64,000 nucleotides of DNA from Solidesulfovibrio aerotolerans (GTDB lineage Bacteria > Desulfobacterota > Desulfovibrionia > Desulfovibrionales > Desulfovibrionaceae), in NCBI RefSeq assembly GCF_009856865.1, contig NZ_WVUD01000005.1:1-64000 (forward strand). Direction: 5' to 3'. This document shows, piece after piece, positions 41,567 through 53,213 of the stretch (positions are counted from its first letter, which is position 1; the number at the start of each line of letters is the position of its first letter). Below the pieces are notes generated by a model. The model did not search any database, was not told where the DNA came from, and saw only the letters and a list, made by a program, of their open reading frames with translations. The position numbers and the translations under genes were made by a program.

Positions 41567-41830
41567 TTAGCGCGCCGCGCCGGCAACGCCGCCCAACTCC
41601 GGCGGTCTTTTCCAGGAAATTTCCAGATGAAAGGTTTCGGCGTCCTTGTTGGTGGCGGCTTTGACGACCACGTTGACGCGCGGGCACGGATGCAGGAGGA
41701 GGGCTTCGTCCCCAACCTGCACGGCAAGCTTCCCGTTTTTCATGTCGGCAATGAGCTGTTCCAGGACGACACTCAGGTCGGCACACTGCATGACACCTTC
41801 GATCTTGATCTTTTGCTTGTCCTTTTCCAC
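41567..41830 (-). CDS. Amphi-Trp domain protein
   Basis: 87 aa. GTG start at 41830 with AGGAGG 8 nt upstream. KIKIEGVMQCADLSVVLEQLIADMKNGKLAVQ and the end FHLEISWKRP match the small amphi-Trp domain, named for its amphipathic strands and conserved Trp. Function of the family is unknown. It lies 23 nt after the gene at 41854 in the same direction, so it is probably the third gene of the ParA operon. Confidence 0.8.
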   Translation of the reverse strand: MEKDKQKIKIEGVMQCADLSVVLEQLIADMKNGKLAVQVGDEALLLHPCPRVNVVVKAATNKDAETFHLEISWKRPPELGGVAGAAR

Positions 41831-41853
41831 GAAACGAGCCTCCTGGCTAACGC

Positions 41854-42963
41854 TTAGCCGGTAATTTCAAACGCGACGCAGCGCCCCTGGGCCAGCCGCA
41901 CAGACCCGCCGCGTCCCAGGACAAACGTGACCAGCGGTTTGAGCGCCTCCAGACCCAGACGGACTTGCGGCAAGCGGTTGCGGAAAAAATCGCCATTGTC
42001 GAAGAGTTCCAGGACGTGCCTGTCGGCTGCGCCTTTGCGCAGGCGGGCCGTCAACACCGGCAACGGACCGCAATCCTCCCCCGGGCGACAGGCAAACTGA
42101 TCCGGCCGGGCCGTGGGCAGGACGATGCGTTGCAGGGCGTGGCTGAAATACAGGATTTTTTCCACCGGCACGGCACCGGCGGCAGCATCGACCACAACGT
42201 GCAGGGCACCCGGATCGTCGGGGACAAAGGCATCGAGGACGCTGCGAAAAAAGAGCGTCAACGCGTGTTCTCCCTGGAGCAGGGAATCCGGCTCGCAGGA
42301 GGCACTGGCAGCGTCACTGTGCGCCAGCGGCGTCTCGTGCGGCGCAGGAGACGCCACCGGGGCAGCATACGGCGCGACAGACGGGATGGCCGGTTCGGTT
42401 GGCGGCTGGAAGGCCATACCGAGCGCATCCGGTTGCGACGGCACCGTCAGCACCGACGGCGCGGCTGACGCGGCGTCTGTCGGCGCAGCCGGTTCGGTTG
42501 GCGGCTGGAAGGCCGCACCGAGCGCATCCGGTTGCGACGGCACCGTCAACACCGGCGGCGCGGCAGACTCAGAGGCTGTCGGCGCAGCCGGTTCGGTTGG
42601 CGGCTGAAACGCCGCACCGAGCGCATCCGGTTGCGACGGCACCGTCAGCACCGACGGCGCGGCAGACGCGGCGGCTGGCTCGGGGGCGGCCGGCGACGGC
42701 TCCCCGGCCGCAGCTTCCTGGACCTCGGCCATAGCAAGCGGCCCCCCGGGCGCGACCGCGGCCTCGGCCACCGGCGCGAGCGTTTCCGGTGTTTGCAGAT
42801 TGCGGGTGTCGTCAGCCTGTGGCGGTGTCGCCGAGGCCTCAGGTGCCAAAGGCTGGCCGGCCCCGGCGGCCTTTTTTTTCGCAGGCTTGCGGCCGGCAGC
42901 AGGAGTTTTGGGCTTGGCTGCGTCTTGCAAAGGATCACGGCCGAGACGGGAACGTGTTGCCAT
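41854..42963 (-). CDS. Repeat-bearing protein with degenerate HATPase-like C-terminus, ParA partner
   Basis: 369 aa, 9 nt after parA. N-terminus is Lys/Ala/Pro-rich. Residues about 95-190 are three tandem 33-aa copies built on VLTVPSQPDALGAAFQPPTEP, then a Ser/Ala/Pro linker. The last ~140 residues (from HALTLFFRSVLDAFVPDD) form a compact domain. Strand-helix order and LELFDNGDFF, VRLGLEALKPLVTFVLGRGGSV recall the G boxes of a histidine-kinase ATPase but the glycines needed for ATP are missing. May be a cargo or adaptor for ParA. Family call is an inference. Confidence 0.65.
   Translation of the reverse strand: MATRSRLGRDPLQDAAKPKTPAAGRKPAKKKAAGAGQPLAPEASATPPQADDTRNLQTPETLAPVAEAAVAPGGPLAMAEVQEAAAGEPSPAAPEPAAASAAPSVLTVPSQPDALGAAFQPPTEPAAPTASESAAPPVLTVPSQPDALGAAFQPPTEPAAPTDAASAAPSVLTVPSQPDALGMAFQPPTEPAIPSVAPYAAPVASPAPHETPLAHSDAASASCEPDSLLQGEHALTLFFRSVLDAFVPDDPGALHVVVDAAAGAVPVEKILYFSHALQRIVLPTARPDQFACRPGEDCGPLPVLTARLRKGAADRHVLELFDNGDFFRNRLPQVRLGLEALKPLVTFVLGRGGSVRLAQGRCVAFEITG
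42391..42687. repeat. Three 99-bp tandem repeats inside the ParA-partner gene
   Basis: Copies begin at 42391, 42490 and 42589 (each starting CGGTTCGGTT) and differ at few positions. The period of 99 keeps the frame and gives the three 33-aa protein repeats. Confidence 0.9.
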
Positions 42964-42972
42964 ACGACATCC

Positions 42973-43776
42973 TTATTGCCGGGCGGCGGCTGCCCCGCCC
43001 GGAGTTGGTTGGCCGAGTCGAACCGCCAGTTCCCGGCACAGAGCGGTAAAATCCGCCGCCCCGGCGCTTCGTGGCGCATACCTGAAAATATCCTGCCCAA
43101 AGCTGGGTGCTTCGGCCAGGGCGATGTTTTCCCGAATCGCCGTGGCGAACGCCGTCCCGGGGAAATGCTGCCGCACCAACTCCCGGACCTCGCGGTGCAG
43201 GCGCTTTTGGGCGCTGTAGCGGTTGAGCACGACACCGACCACGTCCGGCCCGCCCGACGTCCCCGACAACTCGGCCAACGTCTCCATAAGCCAGGCCAGA
43301 CTTTGCATGGCCAAAAAATCCGGGGTCATGGGCACCAGCACCCCGGTTGCCGCCGCCAGCACCTGGCGCGTCAGCGGCCCCAGATGGGGCGGGCAATCAA
43401 TGATGACGATATCGACCCCGGGCAGCGTGTCCAGGGCGCTTGCAAGCTTGTGCGACCCAACCGCAGCTCCGGCCAGCCGCGTTTCCGTTGCGGCCAGGGC
43501 GGCGCTGCCGGGCAACAGGTGCAATTGCCCCAGGTCGGCCACGGCCTGGGCCAAGGTGAGCCGCCCGTCCAGGACGCCGGCCAGTCCGTCGAGGTCTGCC
43601 GCGACCAGCCCCAGGGAGGCGGTCAGATGGGCTTGCGGATCGGCGTCCACGGCCAGCACGCGCCAGCCCAGCCGGGCCAGCCCGGCGGCCAGATTGACAC
43701 TGCAGGTGGTCTTGCCCACCCCGCCTTTGTGGTTGAGGCAGGCGAGGCGCGGGATATGGCTCACGGGAGGGTGCAT
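42973..43776 (-). CDS. ParA/Soj-family ATPase
   Basis: 267 aa. Deviant Walker A NHKGGVGKTTCSVNLA, Walker A' VDADPQAHLT and Walker B VIIDCPPHLG, the ParA/MinD set. Such ATPases position DNA or protein arrays. No ParB gene or parS site lies beside it, and the operon partners are the repeat protein and the amphi-Trp protein, so protein positioning (chemoreceptor or pilus machinery) is more likely than plasmid partition. No clear Shine-Dalgarno; a Pho-box-like sequence ends 22 nt before the start. Confidence 0.9.
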   Translation of the reverse strand: MHPPVSHIPRLACLNHKGGVGKTTCSVNLAAGLARLGWRVLAVDADPQAHLTASLGLVAADLDGLAGVLDGRLTLAQAVADLGQLHLLPGSAALAATETRLAGAAVGSHKLASALDTLPGVDIVIIDCPPHLGPLTRQVLAAATGVLVPMTPDFLAMQSLAWLMETLAELSGTSGGPDVVGVVLNRYSAQKRLHREVRELVRQHFPGTAFATAIRENIALAEAPSFGQDIFRYAPRSAGAADFTALCRELAVRLGQPTPGGAAAARQ

Positions 43777-43798
43777 TGGCCCAGAATGCCCCGGGCCT

Positions 43799-43816
43799 GT
43801 GACATTTTAACGACAG
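43799..43816 (-). promoter_or_regulatory. Pho-box-like sequence upstream of parA
   Basis: Minus strand CTGTCGTTAAAATGTCAC: two 7-bp repeats (CTGTCGT, ATGTCAC) with 4 bp between, the layout of a PhoB site (CTGTCAT-N4-CTGTCAT). It ends 22 nt from the parA ATG. It is also partly palindromic (CCTGT/ACAGG), so another factor is possible. Confidence 0.45.
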
Positions 43817-43846
43817 GGGCCGCACAGGCGCTGTTTCGACGCCGCA

Positions 43847-43864
43847 ACGTCACGGACCGGTCAT
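43847..43864 (+). promoter_or_regulatory. Pho-box-like sequence upstream of the radical SAM gene
   Basis: ACGTCACGGACCGGTCAT: repeats ACGTCAC and CGGTCAT around GGAC, 11-bp period. It shares GTCACGGA with the sites at 47879 and 49053. It ends 56 nt before the GTG at 43921. Confidence 0.5.
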
Positions 43865-43920
43865 GGCCCTGCACCCGCAGGCCGCTAGAGGCTTAAGCAA
43901 AACGCCGCTGCGAGGGAACC

Positions 43921-45180
43921 GTGTCGATTTTACAAATTTTGCGCCAAAAGGGGCGGCCCCGGCAGGTCGTCGTGCAACTGACCAACCGCTGCAATGCCCA
44001 CTGCGCCCAATGCGGCATGCGTGCCACCGCCGGCGGGGCGCGCGGCGACATGGAAATCGATACGGCCAAGAAAATCATCGACCGCTGCGCCGCCCTTGGT
44101 GTCTCGGCCTTGTCCTTTACCGGCGGCGAACCACTGTTGTGCGATACGCGGTTGTGCACGCTGCTGACCTACGCCGGCCAGGCCGGCATCCGCTATCTGC
44201 GCACCGGCACCAATGGCTACCGCTTTGCCAACCCCGGCGCGCCGGGCTTCTCGGACCGCGTGGCCCGGCTGGCCGACGCCCTGGCCCGCACCCCGGTGCG
44301 AAACGTCTGGATCAGCCTGGATTCGGCCGATGCAGCCACCCACGAGGCCAACCGGGGCTTTCCCGGCCTGATCGAGGGCCTGGCCCGCGCCTTGCCCCTG
44401 TTCCATGACCGGGGCATCTATCCCACGGCCAATCTGGCCATCAACCGCCTGATGGGCGGCCCTGATGCCGTGCAAGGCCGCGATGATGCGGCCTTGTACG
44501 CTGCCGCCGGCGCGGCCCTGACCCGTTTTTTCACCACGGCGGCAGGACTGGGCTTTACCATCGCCAACTGCTGCTATCCCATGAGCGACGCCGACCAGGA
44601 GCACGGCACGACAGCGGAATACGCCGCCAGTTCGGCTGATGGCCGGGTGACGTTTGGGGCCTGGGAAAAGGCTGCCCTGTTTCGGGCCGTGCTGGACACC
44701 GTGCCGCGCAACCGGGACAAGCTGCGCATCTTCACGCCGCAAAGCGCCGTCTATGCCCTGTGGCGGCACTATGCCGGTGCCCCACGCGCAACCCGACCGT
44801 GCCTGGGCGGGGTGAGCTTTTTTTATGTGAACCGCTTCGGCGACACCTTTCCCTGCGGCTACCGGGGAACGGAGAACCTGGGGCCGTTCTGGAAGATGCG
44901 CGAGGACCAGCTGGCCGGCACGCCCCATTGCCGCATCTGCGATTGGGAGTGCTTTCGCGACCCCAGCGAACTGCTGGCACCGTTTGAAGACCTCCTGGCC
45001 GGGCCGGCCGGCTGGGGCCGGCTCCTTCGGGCCGACCGGCGGCAGCTCGGCTATTGGCTGTCTGATCTGCGCTATTACAAAGCCTGCGGCGACTTTGACG
45101 GCCGCCGGCCGCCTGAGCCGGCCAGGCTGGCGCGGTATGCCGGACAATCTGGCGCAGCACCCGGCCCCGGGCAGGCGTAA
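43921..45180 (+). CDS. Radical SAM protein with C-terminal cysteine motif
   Basis: 419 aa from GTG 43921 (GAGGGAA 3-8 nt upstream). The [4Fe-4S] motif NRCNAHCAQCGMR sits at residues 22-34 and the SAM-binding stretch is FTGGEPLL. A C-terminal Cys cluster (RPCLGG, FPCGYRG, HCRICDWECF) resembles a SPASM/twitch domain for an extra cluster. Such proteins modify peptides or small metabolites. No precursor peptide is seen nearby. It ends at a two-way terminator facing the glycosyltransferase gene. Reaction unknown. Confidence 0.87.
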   Translation: MSILQILRQKGRPRQVVVQLTNRCNAHCAQCGMRATAGGARGDMEIDTAKKIIDRCAALGVSALSFTGGEPLLCDTRLCTLLTYAGQAGIRYLRTGTNGYRFANPGAPGFSDRVARLADALARTPVRNVWISLDSADAATHEANRGFPGLIEGLARALPLFHDRGIYPTANLAINRLMGGPDAVQGRDDAALYAAAGAALTRFFTTAAGLGFTIANCCYPMSDADQEHGTTAEYAASSADGRVTFGAWEKAALFRAVLDTVPRNRDKLRIFTPQSAVYALWRHYAGAPRATRPCLGGVSFFYVNRFGDTFPCGYRGTENLGPFWKMREDQLAGTPHCRICDWECFRDPSELLAPFEDLLAGPAGWGRLLRADRRQLGYWLSDLRYYKACGDFDGRRPPEPARLARYAGQSGAAPGPGQA

Positions 45181-45211
45181 GGCCAGCCCCCGCGCCTTTC
45201 CCCCACCAAAC

Positions 45212-45241
45212 AAAAGCCCGCCGGTTCCCCGACGGGCTTTT
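45212..45241. terminator. Bidirectional intrinsic terminator
   Basis: AAAAGCCCG / CGGGCTTTT arms (45213-45221 and 45233-45241), between the convergent radical SAM and PHP-glycosyltransferase genes. Confidence 0.85.
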
Positions 45242-45274
45242 GCAGTCCGGGCCTGCGGTCGGGAACCCCGGCCC

Positions 45275-47764
45275 TTAGCCGGCCGAGAGTAACGGCATCG
45301 GCTCCGCTGCCACCGCCGCCATCCCGTGGTTGCGGCCGGTTGCGGCGTCGGTGTCAACCGGCGGCATCGATTCGTACATCCGCCAGAACTGCTCAAAGGC
45401 CGTCTCAATGGTGCGGGTTTCGGCATAGGTCCGGGCGGCCCGGCCCATGGCCTGCAGGCGTTTGGGGTCGGCAACGAGCCGCACCAGGGCCTGATACAGG
45501 GCCTCGGCGTCCCCGGCCGGCACCACCAGACCGGTTTCGCCGGGCAGGATGTTCTCCATGGGGCCGCCCTGGTCCGAGACGATGATGGGCAGACCCGAAG
45601 CCTGAGCCTCCAGGACCACGTTGCCAAAGGTGTCGGTGGCACTCGGGAAGACGAAGAGATCGCAGGTGGCAAAAAGGGCCGTCAGCTCCTCGCCCTCGCG
45701 GTAGCCGGTAAAGACCGTGGGTGTGCCGTCCAGCAGGCCGCGCAGGGCATCGAGATACGGCCCGTCGCCGACGATGGTGAGGACCGCCTTGGGGAACCGG
45801 GTCACCAGCCGGCGAAAGGCAGCGGCCAGCAGATGCAGGTCTTTTTCCCGGGACACCCGGCCGGCATACAGCAGACGCGGGCCGTCTCCCAGCTCGAACG
45901 CCTCGGCCACGGCCTCGGACCGGTTGTCCGGCGAGAACTGGACCACATCCACGCCTCTGGGGAAAAGCCGCAGCTTGGCCGGGTCGAGCCCCTTTTCCTC
46001 CAGCTCCCGGCCGGTTTCCCGGGACGGTACATAGACGTAGTCCATCTGATTGTAATACCAGATGATAAATTTCCAGGTCAGGTCTTCCATGGCCTCGTCG
46101 CCGGTGAGAATCTGGGCGTACTGGGGAATGGCCGTGTGGTAGGTGCCATAGATCGGCAGGCGTAGCGTCTTGGCGATGGACAGGGCGGCCAGACCGATCA
46201 ACCCCGGAGTGGCCGAATGGATGTGGGTGAAGTTGCCGGCGTAGACGAAGTCGAGCATCTCCAAAAGCGGCGGATAAAAGAGCTTTTGCTCCGGATATTC
46301 ATCGAGACAGTAGACGCCGATGGGCTTGAAATTTTTCACCCCCGGCTCAAAGACGCGCGGGCCGTTATCGCACGTGACGATGGTCAGTTTCCGGCCGGTC
46401 TTAAGGGCCAGTTTGGCCTGCTGGCGCAACGTGCCCGAAACACCGTTTATCTCGTGGAAGGTATCGGTGAAATGGGCCACCCGGGCTCCGGCGTCCTGGC
46501 CGGTGTTGCCAAGCAGCGCCTCCCGGGCCTGGCTGCTAAAGGCCCGGTCCTTGGTGAAAATGGAATAGGCCAGAAAATAGGGGGCCAGCATGGTATACAG
46601 CGCCCCGGCCGAACCCAGGGAACCGAAAATGTCGAACACATTGGCACCGCTGACGTGGTCGAGCAGCGTTCCGGCAAAATGGGTGGCCACCTGGTTGGTG
46701 GCCCGGTTGACGAAGGAAAACCAGCCGTTTTCCAGATTCTCACCGTTTAAAACCCCGACCTGGGCGAATTCCATCAGGGTCGGGTCGGACCGGATCAGGG
46801 ATTCGGTCTCCAGCCGGATCAGATCGCGCAACGGCGTATTGGCCGTGGCCCGACGGCGGGACAGCCCGCGCAGGATCCGGGTGCGCAGGCGAAAGGCCAG
46901 TCCGACGCTGCCGTGGACGCCGGGTTCCAGGAAGCGGTCCACCACTTTGAGTGTCACGTCCTTGTCCAGGAAGCGTTCGATGCCGAAACGGTGTTTGTAG
47001 TATTGGTAGGCGATGCTGTAGAGGTTGCGGGCCATGGTGCGCGGGGTGCTGGATGCGCCGCGCGCCGTGGCGGCACCGTTTTCCAGGCCGTCGAGAAATT
47101 GGGCGAGGTCGGTTGCCCCTTCCACCTGGGTGTAGGTGGTGGCGATGGTCAGGGCGCTGTGGTCGTCGGAGCCGCCGATCAGGTTCTTGCGCCAGGGCTG
47201 GGCATAGCCGGGGTCGATGGCGTGCTTTTCGGCCAGACGCCAGATGACGGCGGCGTCAAGGCCGGGGATAATGTCGCGCAGGCACTCGTTTTGCCAGGCG
47301 TCGCGGGCTCCGTTAATTTCAAAGTTGCGAAAGAGCAGCAGCATTTTTTCAAAATTTTCCACAGTCATGCGATCGTTGACCCCGAAGAGCGGATGGGCTA
47401 CCGCGTGGTGGATGCCTTCCTGGCGCAGGTACCCGACGAGATCATAGATATTTTCGCGCAGGCGCTGCATCTCGCGATGCTTGTTCTCGTCAATGTCATA
47501 GACCAGGACATGGACTTTGCAGTGGTCTTCGGGGAAATACGACGTTACTTCCTCACTCATGAAGGTTCCCGGCAGATGGGCAATGGCCAAGGAGCCGTCA
47601 ATACAGTTGTGGTCGGAAATCGTCACCAGCCCCATGCCTTTTCGTCTGGCTTCGTCGTAGATGAGCGCGGGTTCCGTGAAGCTTTCCGGGCAGTTTATTT
47701 TCTGCAATACCCATTGGGACGGCCGCGCGGAAAACTTGGAGTGCACGTGCAAATCGACTTTCAT
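45275..47764 (-). CDS. PHP-domain / GT4 glycosyltransferase fusion
   Basis: 829 aa. Residues 1-260 form a PHP metal-phosphoesterase domain with the metal motifs MKVDLHVHSKFS, TISDHNC, HAVAHPLFG and GGSDDHSAL. The middle ~150 residues are helical and unassigned. The last ~400 residues are a family-4 glycosyltransferase: HSATPGLIGLAALSIAKTL, GTYHTAIPQYA, FPRGVDVVQFSP, LLYAGRVSREKDLHLLAAAF and FPSATDTFGNVVLEAQASGLPII. The GT part resembles those that glycosylate diacylglycerol or phosphatidylinositol-like acceptors. Fusion to PHP is unusual. Faces the Pho-box-like site at 47879 across its promoter region. Confidence 0.9.
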   Translation of the reverse strand: MKVDLHVHSKFSARPSQWVLQKINCPESFTEPALIYDEARRKGMGLVTISDHNCIDGSLAIAHLPGTFMSEEVTSYFPEDHCKVHVLVYDIDENKHREMQRLRENIYDLVGYLRQEGIHHAVAHPLFGVNDRMTVENFEKMLLLFRNFEINGARDAWQNECLRDIIPGLDAAVIWRLAEKHAIDPGYAQPWRKNLIGGSDDHSALTIATTYTQVEGATDLAQFLDGLENGAATARGASSTPRTMARNLYSIAYQYYKHRFGIERFLDKDVTLKVVDRFLEPGVHGSVGLAFRLRTRILRGLSRRRATANTPLRDLIRLETESLIRSDPTLMEFAQVGVLNGENLENGWFSFVNRATNQVATHFAGTLLDHVSGANVFDIFGSLGSAGALYTMLAPYFLAYSIFTKDRAFSSQAREALLGNTGQDAGARVAHFTDTFHEINGVSGTLRQQAKLALKTGRKLTIVTCDNGPRVFEPGVKNFKPIGVYCLDEYPEQKLFYPPLLEMLDFVYAGNFTHIHSATPGLIGLAALSIAKTLRLPIYGTYHTAIPQYAQILTGDEAMEDLTWKFIIWYYNQMDYVYVPSRETGRELEEKGLDPAKLRLFPRGVDVVQFSPDNRSEAVAEAFELGDGPRLLYAGRVSREKDLHLLAAAFRRLVTRFPKAVLTIVGDGPYLDALRGLLDGTPTVFTGYREGEELTALFATCDLFVFPSATDTFGNVVLEAQASGLPIIVSDQGGPMENILPGETGLVVPAGDAEALYQALVRLVADPKRLQAMGRAARTYAETRTIETAFEQFWRMYESMPPVDTDAATGRNHGMAAVAAEPMPLLSAG

Positions 47765-47878
47765 GTTTTTTCCTTACAAGAGGTGACTCTGGTGCTACGG
47801 TGTTCTCCAAGCCTCTACGTCTCCTTTGTTGCGGTACAGTAGCGATTAGCCGCAGTTTTCAGTTCACCCAAGGACGTT

Positions 47879-47896
47879 TTGTCACGGAAACGTCAC
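47879..47896. promoter_or_regulatory. Pho-box-like sequence between the PHP-GT and CorA-like genes
   Basis: TTGTCACGGAAACGTCAC: 7-4-7 repeats TTGTCAC / ACGTCAC. It lies 114 nt from the PHP-GT start and 131 nt from the CorA-like start and could serve either. Shares 15 identical nt, TGTCACGGAAACGTC, with the site upstream of btaA. Confidence 0.6.
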
Positions 47897-48027
47897 TTGC
47901 CTAAACCTTCCTTCTGGCACATTTTATAAGGATTGTTCCACTGATACTAGGCTTCTACGGCGTCTGGCAAACAGCACCTGTTCACCCGCCCTGGCGGTCA
48001 AACTCTTCCTGTGGATAGGCTCGCACG

Positions 48028-48981
48028 ATGTTAACGATACACAGCAACGCTCCTGAAAACGCCGGCGAATCCGACAGCGCCCTGCGCTACACCTGGATCA
48101 ATCTGGTCGACCCCAATCCTGACGAAATCGCGAAGGCCCTGGCCCTGGCCCCGCTGGGCGCGGAGTTCATCGGGCATGCCCTGGACCAACACGAGTGCCC
48201 GCGCATCGAATCCGAGGACGAGAGCACCATGGTCGTCATCCGGGCACCCTATCTTGAGACGCGCTACGGCGACGAACGGCGCTCCACAGTCCCCATCGGT
48301 ATCATCTTATCCCAGTCCGTTATCACCACCATTTGCCGCGTGGACGACGCAGCCATCCAGCTGCGGCTGCACAACTGCGGCCAATCCACCTGCCTGCTGC
48401 GGATTGAACAGCATTTGTGCCACGTCATCAAAGAAATCTCGATGCTCTTTATGCGCTATCTCAAGGAGATTTCAGCAGAAATCCAGGAATTGGAACACGA
48501 TCTGGCCGATACGCGCTCCAATGAAGACCTCAAGTTACTGCTCAATTTGCAAAAAACAGTCACGTATTTTCATTCTGCCTTAAAGACCAATGACTTTATT
48601 ATCGACAGAATCATGCGCAAGGGCCTGCCCGTGGGCGCAACCACTAAACTCGCCTTTTCAGAAGACGAGGTGGACGGACTGGACTACGCCTTGACCGAAA
48701 CGCGCCAGGGCATTTATATGTCAAAGATTTTCACAGAAGTCTTGCGCTCCATTGCTGACGTTTATTCCTCGATCATCTCCAACAGCGTCAACGAGATCAT
48801 GAAGGTTTTGACGTCATTGACCGTCATCATCATGATCCCCACATTCATTACCAGTTTTTACGGCATGAACATCGAATTGCCTTTTCAGCATGACACCACA
48901 GCCATATCCATCGTGTCTGCCATAAGCATCGTGCTCACTATTTCTATTATTATCATCATGAAAGTGCGCAAGATCCTGTAG
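48028..48981 (+). CDS. CorA-like divalent cation transporter
   Basis: 317 aa, usual for CorA. A long cytoplasmic part with helices (about 110-240) ends in two membrane helices: EIMKVLTSLTVIIMIPTFITSFYG and AISIVSAISIVLTISIIIIM. The YGMN loop motif lies between them (FYGMNIELPF), the ion entry signature. Mg2+ or Co2+ uptake; related family members export. A Pho-box-like site is 131 nt upstream. Confidence 0.9.
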   Translation: MLTIHSNAPENAGESDSALRYTWINLVDPNPDEIAKALALAPLGAEFIGHALDQHECPRIESEDESTMVVIRAPYLETRYGDERRSTVPIGIILSQSVITTICRVDDAAIQLRLHNCGQSTCLLRIEQHLCHVIKEISMLFMRYLKEISAEIQELEHDLADTRSNEDLKLLLNLQKTVTYFHSALKTNDFIIDRIMRKGLPVGATTKLAFSEDEVDGLDYALTETRQGIYMSKIFTEVLRSIADVYSSIISNSVNEIMKVLTSLTVIIMIPTFITSFYGMNIELPFQHDTTAISIVSAISIVLTISIIIIMKVRKIL

Positions 48982-49052
48982 ACCGCCAGCCGCCTCCACA
49001 GGTACGGCGCACCTGCCGCCAGACCGTGCCCGGCCACGGCAAACAGCCGCCA

Positions 49053-49070
49053 GTGTCACGGAAACGTCGC
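49053..49070 (+). promoter_or_regulatory. Pho-box-like sequence upstream of btaAB
   Basis: GTGTCACGGAAACGTCGC: 7-4-7 repeats GTGTCAC / ACGTCGC, 37 nt before the btaA ATG. A -10-like TATAGA follows at 49094-49099, giving room for a transcription start inside the short leader. Confidence 0.62.
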
Positions 49071-49107
49071 TTTTTCCGTCCATCCTTCCCGGGTATAGAC
49101 GGTTTTT

Positions 49108-50277
49108 ATGAAGCAACAGCCAAAGCTCACCCAGCGTCTGCAAGACGCCTTTTTCGGTCTCGTCTACCGCAACCGCCTCATCTACAACACCTGCTGGGAA
49201 GATCCCCGCCTGGATCGCCGGCTCCTGGGTCTGACCAGCGCCTCGCGGGTGGCGGTCATCACCTCGGCCGGGGACAATGCCCTGGACTATCTGCTGGATG
49301 ATCCGGCCCAGGTCGATTGCGTGGATCTTAATTTCCGGCAAAACGCCCTGCTCGAACTCAAGCGCGGCCTTTTTCTCCACGGCACCTTTGAAGAGCTTTT
49401 CAGCTTTTTCGGCGACGGCGGCGGTCCGAACTGCGCCGCGATCTACGCCCGGATAAGAAAGCATCTGCCCGCCTATGCCGCCGCCTACTGGGACGACAAC
49501 ATCGGCTATTTCAAGGCCGGCCGGCTGTCGCGGTCGTTTTACTACCACGGCGCTTCCGGGGTGGTGGCCTTTGCCTTCTCGCGGCTGCTGGGCCTTATAA
49601 AACCCCGGGTGCGCCGGGAAATCCCCCGGCTGCTGGCCGCCCGGACCCCTGACGAGCAGCGCCGTGCCTACGCCGCCATCGAGCCGGCCTTCTGGGACCG
49701 GCTCTCGCGCTGGCTGGTCGGCCGGCCGGAACTCATGGCGCTTCTTGGCGTGCCCCAGCCGCAGATCCGGCTTATCCGCGACTCCCACCCGGGCGGCCTG
49801 GAGGGCTTTGTCCGGGACAAGGTGCGCCAGGTGTTCACCGAAGTGCCCATGGCTGAAAATTACTTCTGGCGTGTCTACATGACCGGCCGCTACACCCGGG
49901 AATGCTGTCCCGAATATCTCAAGGAAGCCAACTTCGCCGTCATCCGGGAGCGCCTGCCCCGCCTTTTCATCCACACCGAATCGTTAAGTGATTTGCTGGG
50001 CCGCAAGAAAGGCTTTTACAGCCACATTGTCCTGCTCGACCATCAGGACTGGCTGGCCCACCACAACCCCCAGGCCCTGGCCGAGGAATGGGACGGCATT
50101 TTCGCTGCTGCCGCGCCCCAAGCCAAGCTCTTGATGCGCTCGGCCGGCCTGGATGTCTCGTTTGTGCCGGACGCGGCCCGCCAGCGGTTGCGCTTTTTGC
50201 CCGAACTGACCCAGCCCCTGCACGCCGCCGACCGGGTCGGCACCTATGGCAGCCAGCATCTGGCCGTGGTGGGCTGA
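49108..50277 (+). CDS. btaA: BtaA-like S-adenosylmethionine:diacylglycerol 3-amino-3-carboxypropyl transferase
   Basis: 389 aa. Family DUF3419/BtaA. Makes diacylglyceryl-homoserine, the first step of betaine lipid (DGTS) synthesis at the inner membrane. Typical stretches: VYRNRLIYNTCWEDPRLDRR, VITSAGDNALDYLLD, VDCVDLNFRQNALLELKRG, FYYHGASG, and FSHIVLLDH-like YSHIVLLDHQDW. Stop overlaps the start of the methyltransferase gene (TGATG). In Rhodobacter and Sinorhizobium the pair replaces phospholipids under phosphate limitation. The start has no strong ribosome site but the frame is unambiguous. Confidence 0.88.
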   Translation: MKQQPKLTQRLQDAFFGLVYRNRLIYNTCWEDPRLDRRLLGLTSASRVAVITSAGDNALDYLLDDPAQVDCVDLNFRQNALLELKRGLFLHGTFEELFSFFGDGGGPNCAAIYARIRKHLPAYAAAYWDDNIGYFKAGRLSRSFYYHGASGVVAFAFSRLLGLIKPRVRREIPRLLAARTPDEQRRAYAAIEPAFWDRLSRWLVGRPELMALLGVPQPQIRLIRDSHPGGLEGFVRDKVRQVFTEVPMAENYFWRVYMTGRYTRECCPEYLKEANFAVIRERLPRLFIHTESLSDLLGRKKGFYSHIVLLDHQDWLAHHNPQALAEEWDGIFAAAAPQAKLLMRSAGLDVSFVPDAARQRLRFLPELTQPLHAADRVGTYGSQHLAVVG

Positions 50278-50909
50278 TGGAATGCTCGGCCGCCGGCCTT
50301 AAAGGCTATTACCGGCTCCATGCCGGCATCTATGATGCGACCCGGTGGAGTTTCCTGTTTGACCGCGCCCGTCTGCTTGAACTCTCCTGTGCGGCCTTGG
50401 CCGCCACCGGCCGGGAGCACGGGGCGCGGGTGGCGGAAGTGGGCTGCGGCACGGGGCGCAATCTGCGCGCCCTGGCCCGCATGTTGCCCACGGCCCGTCT
50501 GACCGGGCTGGACCTGTGCCCGCCCATGCTGGCCCGGGCGCGCAAGGCAACAGCCACGGCAGCGGATCGGGTGACCCTGGCTTGCGGTGCCTACGGCCCG
50601 GACAGCCTGGGGCACAACTCCCAGGATCTCATCGTTTTTTCCTATGCCCTGACCATGTTTAATCCCGGCTTTGAAGCTGCCGTGGAAACGGCCTGGCTGC
50701 ATGTACGCCCGGGTGGAATTGTGGCTGTGGTTGATTTCAACGATTCGCCGTTCCCGTGGTTTCGCACCTGGATGGGCCTGAACCACGTACGCCTGGACGG
50801 CCATCTGCCGCCGCTTTTGGCCGCCCGGTTGACCACCCTGTCCTATGAAACCAAACCGGCCTACGCTGGACTGTGGCGGCACTTCTGCTTTCTGGGGCGC
50901 AAAGGATAG
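50277..50909 (+). CDS. btaB: BtaB-like S-adenosylmethionine methyltransferase
   Basis: 210 aa, close to bacterial BtaB. It would add three methyl groups to the homoserine head group to give the betaine lipid. SAM motif VAEVGCGTGRNLRALA, motif II-like LTGLDLCPPML, and DLIVFSYALTMF. ATG overlaps the btaA stop. Tied to btaA by context; on its own it would only be called a class I methyltransferase. Confidence 0.85.
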   Translation: MECSAAGLKGYYRLHAGIYDATRWSFLFDRARLLELSCAALAATGREHGARVAEVGCGTGRNLRALARMLPTARLTGLDLCPPMLARARKATATAADRVTLACGAYGPDSLGHNSQDLIVFSYALTMFNPGFEAAVETAWLHVRPGGIVAVVDFNDSPFPWFRTWMGLNHVRLDGHLPPLLAARLTTLSYETKPAYAGLWRHFCFLGRKG

Positions 50910-51827: not shown

Positions 51828-52595
51828 CTATATCCACTCAAAATCCGCGATATAATTCTTCAATTCTTCCAGATCCATACCCTTCACTTTGTCATACTCC
51901 TTGCAATTATCATTAAAATAAGGATTTTTCACAGGATGGCTGTCTTGATAGCGCGGATGGTGTAAATGATACATATGTCCGCTCACAACTTTTTTCTGAA
52001 AATCGAGCATCGCCATGCGATGCAACAGTTCGCGGTCCTCATGCCCCCACGACTTAAAATACTCATTGTAATAGCCAGCTTCGGCAATGCTCTTTTTATC
52101 AAAAAAGACCAGCCCTCCGGTCCCGTCTTCGTACAGCACGTTGCAACTGCCTGGAGCTGGGAATTGCTTGGGAGAATGCAAAAAATTGGGGATCAAAGAC
52201 TCTGGCACGTCAAGAAACAAGCCGCTGTAAGGCAATGAGACAGCAACCCCGTCCAGGACAAACTGATACGCCCGCCGTATATTTGCCGGATGGCAAATCG
52301 TATCAGCATCCGTAATGGCCACAACGTCTGTGCGGCTCTTTTTTATGAGCACATTGAGATACTTGGTCCGATGAAAGAAATCGCTGCCATCTTCTATAAA
52401 CTCATATTTTATAGTATCTTTATACAGATTGATCTGTTGTTCAAAATGTCTGGTTTTTCCGATCTCCAGCATTAATATAGCAGCGTCAAAATGTTTAATT
52501 AAAAAATTCAGTACGATATTTAAGTTTCGCACTCTTTCAAGAGAATCGTATTTAACCAGAATAAGAAACGAGGCATTTCGCAAATCATATTTCAT
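51828..52595 (-). CDS. Galactosyltransferase-like glycosyltransferase
   Basis: 255 aa. ATG 52595 with GAGAGG 7 nt upstream. GT-A fold: nucleotide part FLILVKYDSLERVRNLNIVL; DxD-like metal site AITDADTICHP; and the conserved acceptor motif GGLVFFDKKSIAEAGYYNE ... WGHEDRELLHRM, as in the GT7/N-acetyllactosamine group. Base composition is more AT-rich than its neighbours, suggesting transfer. Substrate not known; likely cell-surface sugar. Confidence 0.85.
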   Translation of the reverse strand: MKYDLRNASFLILVKYDSLERVRNLNIVLNFLIKHFDAAILMLEIGKTRHFEQQINLYKDTIKYEFIEDGSDFFHRTKYLNVLIKKSRTDVVAITDADTICHPANIRRAYQFVLDGVAVSLPYSGLFLDVPESLIPNFLHSPKQFPAPGSCNVLYEDGTGGLVFFDKKSIAEAGYYNEYFKSWGHEDRELLHRMAMLDFQKKVVSGHMYHLHHPRYQDSHPVKNPYFNDNCKEYDKVKGMDLEELKNYIADFEWI

Positions 52596-53213
52596 ATACG
52601 GCCTCTCTCCCACAGCGCGCTGGCCGCACAATGCTTGTCGCCAGCGGCAGCAAGCACTGTGCGGCCTCTCTCATTGCGTGCGACGGCATCACCGTGCGTA
52701 TCGGTGACCGCACAAAAACGGTTTCGCAACCCGCCACCCATTTTCCGCTTCCGGCTCTGTTCGGCCGCCAGCATGATTCGCATTTAAATAATCAGATTGG
52801 ACAAGTTCTCTCGTTTCAGGGGACAGGCCGCTCCATTTCCCTACCAAATAACGGTTGGCTACGAGAATAGCTCATTTTTGTAAGCTAGCCAATGGAATCC
52901 AGCCCCTACCAATTGAGTCCCCACTTATAGAAATTGAATCTTATGCCTTTTTCTGTCCCACACTTCGAAATACGAAAGCTGCGCAGCAGGTTCCTGCCAA
53001 CCCCCATACTCCTCCCCTGACAAGCGCAGCCTGCGCTCGCAGACTCCACGCCAAGGCCGGAGTTATACATGCTCTTGCTTGATCGAATATGGGGTTCGAC
53101 GCTTTTTGACAAGGCGACAGCCATTCGGTAGTGAGAAAAATGTGGGAAGCTTACGTTGTCTGGCGTAATTGTTTTGGAACGGTGAATCACATCCATCTTG
53201 GTGGAGGGGATCT
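52596..53213. other. 618-bp intergenic region
   Basis: No gene seen. It contains a long near-perfect hairpin at 52623-52665: GCCGCACAATGCTTG and CAAGCACTGTGCGGC pair at 14 of 15 positions. The rest is mixed, with an AT-rich patch around 52860-52960. GTGGAGGGG at 53201-53209 is the ribosome site of the protease gene. Confidence 0.55.

Follow-up and report, generated by a model that had tools for sequence, protein, structure and literature searches.

Pho-box-like sites suggest phosphate control of a putative lipid-remodelling region in Solidesulfovibrio aerotolerans

Do the genes surrounding btaAB in the sulfate reducer Solidesulfovibrio aerotolerans take part in a response to phosphate starvation? 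The question is raised by four short repeats in a 64-kb stretch of this genome (the window; part of contig C117 of a 4.61 Mb genome, 99.99% complete), which lie among the genes for a putative betaine lipid synthase (btaAB), an uncharacterised radical S-adenosylmethionine (SAM) protein, a glycosyltransferase with a putative PHP domain (PHP-glycosyltransferase), a CorA-like transporter and a ParA-like ATPase (Table 1). The original prediction, made from the sequence of the window, had read the repeats as Pho-box-like sites of a possible lipid-remodelling gene group. A Pho-regulated lipid-remodelling region was supported by the comparative analysis described here, with corrections concerning the PHP-glycosyltransferase and parA genes, and PhoB is its predicted regulator: the four sites are best read as PhoB boxes, which we consider quite probable. 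Comparisons were made with 149 genomes and with a same-genus set of 9 genomes, including the window's own.

Direct reading of the sequence confirmed four 18-bp sites, all of them with a 7-4-7 layout and an 11-bp period. Sites 3 and 4 shared the 15 bases TGTCACGGAAACGTC, as had been predicted, and site 2 contained GTCACGGA. The 15-mer was present exactly twice in the window; at up to two mismatches, 2 copies of TGTCACGGAAACGTC were found against 0.04 expected, and two such copies appeared in none of 100 dinucleotide shuffles. A CGACGC located 11 bp upstream of site 2 is a possible third half-site, and a -10-like TATAGA was found 23 bp downstream of site 4. The orientation of the sites agreed with their proposed place in front of parA, the radical SAM gene, corA and btaA; the PHP-glycosyltransferase gene, which had been assigned to site 3 together with corA, was faced by none of them. 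In the whole genome, the pattern TGTCAYNNNNNYGTCRY had 11 matches, compared with 2 for the reversed pattern. Two of these were sites 3 and 4, and two others were the phoB and pstB-phoU boxes described below. The matches at C80:13089, C85, C79:63394 and C96 were set aside because they lie inside open reading frames (ORFs), DNA ligase-like by eye in the case of C80:13089, and with a metallophosphoesterase domain in the case of C96; the remaining matches (C80:27155, C83 and C139) were near a molybdate-transporter-like gene, hisG and a D5-type gene.

Promoters of known phosphate genes were used to build a scoring matrix without the window: 30 phoB and 30 pstS promoters of the family (the closest 30 of 124 genomes with phoB and the closest 30 of 118 with pstS), 58 of which gave a site. 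The matrix consensus, YGT(C/A)AC(A/C)nAAYYGT(A/C)AC, agreed with the published Desulfovibrio vulgaris PhoB box, a repeated (c/t)GT(n)AC; pstS is PhoB-dependent in that species (PMC3333781, PMC6456213). Direct (c/t)GT(n)AC half-sites with an 11-bp period were strictly present in site 3; sites 1, 2 and 4 kept the spacing, with one or two departures from the PhoB box in one half-site. The original prediction had named a lack of matches at pst/pho promoters as evidence against it; the promoters of phoB, pstS and pstB-phoU all carried the motif. In the window's genome, GTGTCACACAATCGTCAC was found in front of the phoB-phoR-pstB genes (contig C72; 25.0 bits), in which pstB, an ABC ATPase by Pfam, is named by resemblance. 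This site and that of the pstS promoter (24.0 bits) were the top two in the 187 kb scanned. In front of pstB-phoU (contig C11), TTGTCACGGAAATGTCGC was near-identical to sites 3 and 4 (9.4 bits). The exact GTGTCACACAATCGTCAC was present in all 9 phoB promoters of the genus, and a PhoB orthologue was present in 124 of the 149 genomes (E<=1e-60). A Pho-box-like site (12.3 bits) was also observed at L096 5212-5229, 64 bp upstream of a phytase-like gene and in the opposite orientation.

The btaAB pair showed the gene layout of a betaine lipid synthase: a BtaA of the DUF3419 family and, behind it, a methyltransferase. The named BtaA proteins most closely related to it were those of Desulfovibrio sp. 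DV (82%) and Solidesulfovibrio (75%), with own-genome records possibly excluded. Loss of the 15-nt motif in relatives keeping btaAB had been proposed as a second point against the prediction. The exact 15-mer did drift, but Pho-type half-sites stayed in all nine aligned btaA loci: in 6 genomes of the genus, including the window's, the box was at the aligned place, and in the other 3 a three-unit array recognized by eye, YGTCNC-N5-CGTCAC-N5-CGNCGC, was further upstream (13.4-14.1 bits). An array of this type was seen in L013-L015 (a Solidesulfovibrio metagenome-assembled genome (MAG), a Desulfovibrio MAG and S. alcoholivorans; p 0.006 each), and in Desulfovibrio sp. DV (L012) the aligned box was found at p 0.059. 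Twelve btaA loci were scored with the matrix; the 3 from genus g43, in which btaA is located behind the radical SAM gene, had no site above -3 bits.

Site 3 raises the question of which gene it serves. The box was kept in the same orientation in all nine genomes of the genus (p 0.001-0.013 each), about 115-165 bp before the PHP-glycosyltransferase gene. In each of the other eight genomes it faced a divergent pstB operon, with phoU behind pstB in seven of them; the contig of L200, the eighth, stops within pstB. In four of the eight, genes belonging to a single cluster were located between the box and pstB, and the one in L196 encodes an EAL-GGDEF protein. Only in the window's genome was corA found opposite the PHP-glycosyltransferase gene. 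The simple assignment of the 47879 box to the latter was ruled out by its orientation and by the divergent pstB operon in relatives. Contig C11 (L094 3211-9004) carried a class II aminoacyl-tRNA synthetase gene, a gene for a PocR-type histidine kinase, the box, pstB and phoU, and lacked the PHP-glycosyltransferase gene, which in relatives, for example in L196, is bordered by members of these synthetase and kinase clusters. It therefore appears that the PHP-glycosyltransferase gene left the pstB-phoU locus for the radical SAM/btaAB locus and took along its promoter block and one copy of the box; the C11 genes would be what remains of the likely ancestral locus. The relocated box was nearer to the consensus than that of C11 (17.4 vs. 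11.7 bits with a softened matrix, the C11 sequence being read in L107-L111).

Linkage between the PHP-glycosyltransferase gene and phosphate genes was also observed in genus g29, in which seven genomes carry the gene: a phoB-like gene was located 0.6-0.7 kb upstream in three of them (G061, G083 and G134), and pstS at 4-6 kb in three others (G098, G110 and G144). In G134, a corA (56% identical) was located beside the phoB-like gene. Despite the orientation of the box, these linkages to pst/pho genes make phosphate control of the PHP-glycosyltransferase likely. This phoB-like gene, seen just upstream of the PHP-glycosyltransferase gene at G061:C23, L226 and L248, is a second one in these genomes.

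The rival explanation, unlikely in our view, places the PHP-glycosyltransferase outside PhoB control: the box would serve corA or the pstB operon, and the protein would make, for example, an exopolysaccharide or an envelope glycan. Several observations speak for it and against phosphate control of the gene. The site 3 box faced away from the gene in 9/9 genomes, and the GT4 part of the protein also resembles many glycan transferases. The gene's own forward repeat (CGCTAC-N5-CGCAAC, Table 1) is weak; among the other eight genomes of the genus, the best forward site was a repeat of this type in five (p 0.043-0.066) and a different site in three. L226 and L248, which have the phoB-like gene next door, showed no Pho box in front of the gene. 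In the upstream tests (the closest 30 loci from 80 genomes), only 7 of the 21 loci outside the genus were above 95% of control upstream regions, and of 10 further loci 5 reached p<0.05, one of them from a repeat genome. The opposite is indicated by the adjacency of the gene to phosphate genes in two genera, by the retention of the box after the gene gained a new neighbour, and by the forward repeat itself, which has an 11-bp period and lies 10 bp before a -10-like TAGAGG in a block conserved in the 9-genome alignment. Furthermore, the forward-site excess in other genera was significant (p 2e-9, 21 loci), with 12 of the 21 loci at p<0.05 with respect to random stretches. The best family match of the glycosyltransferase part was a phospholipid glycosyltransferase (130.6 bits, below the cut-off of 480) and its best solved match a phosphatidylinositol mannoside mannosyltransferase: its best relatives act on membrane lipids, and others on other glycans.

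The radical SAM gene is tied to the PHP-glycosyltransferase gene and to btaAB by gene neighbourhoods across genomes, independently of the sites. Close relatives of the radical SAM gene (E<1e-99) were present in 32 of the 149 genomes, and all 32 also had the PHP-glycosyltransferase, itself present in 80 of the 149 (E<1e-120; Fisher p 7e-11 for co-occurrence, uncorrected for descent). Both genes were at most 3 kb apart in 10 of the 32 genomes (6 genera). The radical SAM gene was present in all 12 genomes with a close btaA (E<1e-130), and in three genomes of genus g43 it was located directly before btaA-btaB on the same strand. These neighbourhoods uphold part of the original grouping, as they join the radical SAM gene to the PHP-glycosyltransferase gene and to btaAB; other parts were not supported, the 47879 box facing corA, and parA and its partners showing no sign of a lipid function. 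In genus g41 (L242-L244) the radical SAM gene had other recurring neighbours (clusters c21 and c29).

Upstream regions were examined in the closest 30 radical SAM loci from the 32 genomes. The best forward score had a median of 10.1 bits in these loci, compared with 2.5 bits in 199 control upstream regions (p 1e-11), and 22 of the 30 had p<0.05 with respect to random stretches. With one relative per genus (10 of 14 genera; g6 was not included, nor were three genera whose sampled copy is located behind the PHP-glycosyltransferase gene) the difference was maintained (p 5e-7, 6 of 10 above the 95% mark of the controls). Four of the five copies located directly behind the PHP-glycosyltransferase gene were scored; their median was -0.2 bits and none exceeded the mark, and this lack of excess fits the expectation for a shared promoter. 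Within the genus, the best forward site at the position of site 2 had p<0.05 in 8 of 9 loci (0.052 in the ninth), and the place and direction of site 1 were occupied by a box in 9 of 9 (p 0.002-0.017 each), with parA itself at that place in 8. A relative of the Amphi-Trp-like ORF (cluster c7) was found in 7 of the other 8 radical SAM regions of the genus. A lipid role for parA was rejected, as it encodes a ParA-type ATPase with no lipid domain. The operon of this ATPase (41567-43816 with its site) comprises parA, the 369-aa ORF and the Amphi-Trp-like ORF.

A further rival accepts sites 3 and 4 as PhoB boxes of corA and btaAB and regards sites 1 and 2 as chance occurrences, the radical SAM gene being linked by neighbourhood only. 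The scores lend it some weight, with only 6.8 bits for site 2 and 10.1 for site 1, when 1.75 positions per strand reach 10 bits or more in a shuffled 64 kb. Other observations also weigh against PhoB control of the region as a whole. The matrix was seeded with a general Pho-box pattern (YGTCAY-N5-YGTCAY), and the window contained 5 positions of at least 9 bits, compared with about 5.8 in letter shuffles (2.9 per strand), and 1 position of at least 16 bits, compared with about 0.5. Since the window does not exceed shuffled sequence in positions of 9 bits or more, site 3 is the only one that stands out by its score. At btaA, the first half of the aligned box was degenerate (GCGACAC) in 2 of 9 genomes, and where the aligned box was the best forward site (4 genomes) it reached only 4.8-9.2 bits, low scores that arise because CGTCGC or CGTCGT halves are rare in the matrix. 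The p-values were uncorrected for relatedness. For the radical SAM gene, only 15 of 30 loci (6 of 10 genera) passed the 95% mark of the stricter control, the g43 radical SAM-btaAB operons had marginal sites (p 0.047-0.067), and one copy behind the PHP-glycosyltransferase gene (L153) had a site at p 0.050 with respect to random stretches. Nonetheless, sites 1, 2 and 4 stand above chance because of the shared 15-mer, their placement before genes and their conservation in relatives. Chance is rendered quite improbable for sites 1 and 2 by the boxes facing parA in 9 of 9 and the radical SAM gene in 8 of 9 loci of the genus, and by an upstream excess that holds over 10 genera sampled once each. It is very improbable that a different regulator of the OmpR family, recognizing a box of this kind, acts here in place of PhoB itself. 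In favour of it, the g29 genomes have a second phoB-like gene, adjoining the PHP-glycosyltransferase gene in three, but the window's genome has a single PhoB at E<=1e-60 and the motif is found in front of phoB itself and pstS.

Table 1. Genes and Pho-box-like sites of the region, in window coordinates. Bit scores of the sites refer to the promoter matrix, and ranks to the 128,000 positions of the window (both strands).
Feature	Positions	Strand	Description
Small Amphi-Trp-like ORF behind the 369-aa ORF	41567..41830	-	PF20068 24.1 bits, under the cut-off of 27
369-aa (amino acid) ORF behind parA	41854..42963	-	without Pfam match
parA-like ATPase	42973..43776	-	PF13614 118.2 bits
Site 1 CTGTCGTTAAAATGTCAC	43799..43816	-	CTGTCGT-TAAA-ATGTCAC; points to parA; 10.1 bits, 4th
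Site 2 ACGTCACGGACCGGTCAT	43847..43864	+	ACGTCAC-GGAC-CGGTCAT; points to radical SAM gene; 6.8 bits
Radical SAM protein, 419 aa	43921..45180	+	PF04055 49.4 bits; uncharacterised family
PHP-glycosyltransferase, 829 aa	45275..47764	-	PF13692/PF00534/PF13439
Weak direct repeat CGCTAC-N5-CGCAAC	47828..47844	-	toward PHP-glycosyltransferase; 11-bp period; 6.8 bits, p 0.079
Site 3 TTGTCACGGAAACGTCAC	47879..47896	+	TTGTCAC-GGAA-ACGTCAC; points to corA; 17.3 bits, 1st
corA-like Mg2+/Co2+ transporter	48028..48981	+	PF01544 155.8 bits
Site 4 GTGTCACGGAAACGTCGC	49053..49070	+	GTGTCAC-GGAA-ACGTCGC; points to btaA; 9.2 bits, 5th
btaA (DUF3419 family)	49108..50277	+	PF11899 338.8 bits
btaB-like methyltransferase	50277..50909	+	PF13649 58.6 bits

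Downstream of btaAB, a galactosyltransferase-like ORF (PF02709) was observed at window positions 51828-52631.

The radical SAM protein combined its PF04055 domain with a CxxxCxxC motif that was invariant in 27 of 27 aligned sequences (alignment A1: the window protein and those from 26 of 29 other loci; L143, L147 and L160 were excluded because stop codons interrupt their matched stretch). Cysteines 218, 294, 312, 337, 340, 344 and 389 were also invariant in all 27, and we take the arrangement of these later cysteines to resemble the SPASM type. No curated NCBIfam radical SAM family was matched over its cut-off (best 78.1 bits vs. 500). The nearest solved or curated relatives were BlsE, AhbD and Tes, with which the radical SAM core is shared; the match to BlsE, the nearest solved structure, covered the core alone (profile positions 7-165), and the scores were far below the NCBIfam cut-offs.

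The PHP-glycosyltransferase consists of an N-terminal PHP-like domain, a middle part and a GT4 glycosyltransferase. GT4 domains were found in all 19 members aligned (alignment A2, from 19 of the 30 loci). In the N-terminal 260 residues, H6, H8, D51, H52, E72, H124, D200 and H202 were invariant in 16 of 16 aligned sequences (A3, from 16 of the 30 loci); this HxH, DH, E, H, DxH series presumably corresponds to the metal-binding residues of PHP phosphoesterases. No PHP profile reached its cut-off in the window protein (PHP_C 16.4 bits vs. 21.3, E 0.0065), PHP_C was matched at E<=0.01 in just 2 of the 19 full-length members, and the structure 3e0f of the PDB at E 0.081. The predicted PHP fold is suggested by the conserved residues and these weak profile matches.

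How might these genes act together? At low phosphate, PhoR would phosphorylate PhoB (both encoded in phoB-phoR-pstB), which would bind the boxes and switch on the phosphate transporters and, in this region, btaAB, corA, the radical SAM gene and the parA operon; the PHP-glycosyltransferase gene is a probable further target. Betaine lipid made by BtaAB and a glycolipid made by the PHP-glycosyltransferase would then take the place of phospholipids and save phosphate, and the radical SAM protein would act in the same membrane change. An olsF-like gene of the window's genome (OlsB-type domain PF13444, OlsF-like by length), which has a weak site (9.6 bits) 90 bp before the first notable in-frame ATG, would add ornithine lipid, as in D. 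alaskensis G20. From sequence we infer that PhoB binds and induces these genes, what the enzymes produce, and what the radical SAM protein and the PHP domain do. A conserved motif that also marks the pst/pho promoters was observed directly, as were the gene linkages, and these observations give the scheme for the region as a whole a good chance of being correct. A more detailed scheme is doubtful: the PHP domain would strip phosphate from phosphatidate or a phospholipid, GT4 would add a sugar to the resulting diacylglycerol, and the radical SAM protein would modify the head group or backbone of the betaine lipid or glycolipid; the synthesis of phosphorus-free membranes would then have a new branch in sulfate reducers.

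This kind of system is known from other bacteria. In Sinorhizobium meliloti, betaine lipid synthesis is reportedly controlled by phosphate through phoB, as Geiger is said to have described in 1999; the btaAB genes analysed here belong to Solidesulfovibrio-like sulfate reducers, in which btaA is neighboured or preceded by a radical SAM gene. The Agt-type diacylglycerol glycosyltransferase works with a separate phospholipase, PlcP, in Pseudomonas and Methylosinus. The common logic may be the removal of phosphate followed by the transfer of a sugar onto diacylglycerol, but Agt and PlcP are separate proteins, whereas here a PHP phosphoesterase-like domain of predicted activity is fused to the glycosyltransferase.

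Among sulfate reducers, D. vulgaris PhoB (DVU1083) has, as here, an 11-bp-period direct repeat before pstS and phoB, and phoU is one of its targets; HD and EAL genes are also targets there, and the EAL-GGDEF gene of L196 recalls them. Lipid-synthesis genes, which carry boxes in the window's genome, are not named among the D. vulgaris targets in the available portions of these reports, supplementary target lists aside (PMC3333781, PMC6456213). In D. alaskensis G20, phospholipids are replaced by glycolipids and ornithine lipids under phosphate limitation, and a mutant in the Agt homologue Dde_3613 lacks glycolipids at low phosphate; a glycosyltransferase is thus required for low-phosphate glycolipids there, with OlsF as the ornithine lipid counterpart (PMC5193443, available portions). 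Betaine lipid appears only in reference titles in the accessible text of that paper (PMC5193443), whereas the window's genome has btaAB. In the open literature searched, no report was found that combines betaine lipid and btaA with Desulfovibrio, nor one on a Pho regulon with lipid remodelling in Desulfovibrio; radical SAM and betaine lipid occurred together in 4 papers. Among the matches listed for glycosyltransferases in combination with PHP domains, phosphate starvation and glycolipids, none contained the term "PHP domain".

What is new in this otherwise known kind of system is the PHP fusion and the radical SAM family linked to it, and the analysis suggests that two unstudied enzymes may help cells to save phosphate. 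It ties a known stress response to a radical SAM family that is uncharacterised and to a conserved PHP-glycosyltransferase, and so offers a condition (low phosphate) and a read-out (lipids) for the study of both proteins. If this is true, the production of betaine lipid on demand would extend to these sulfate reducers, and the source of some lipids in phosphate-poor anoxic waters and sediments could be found in these genes.

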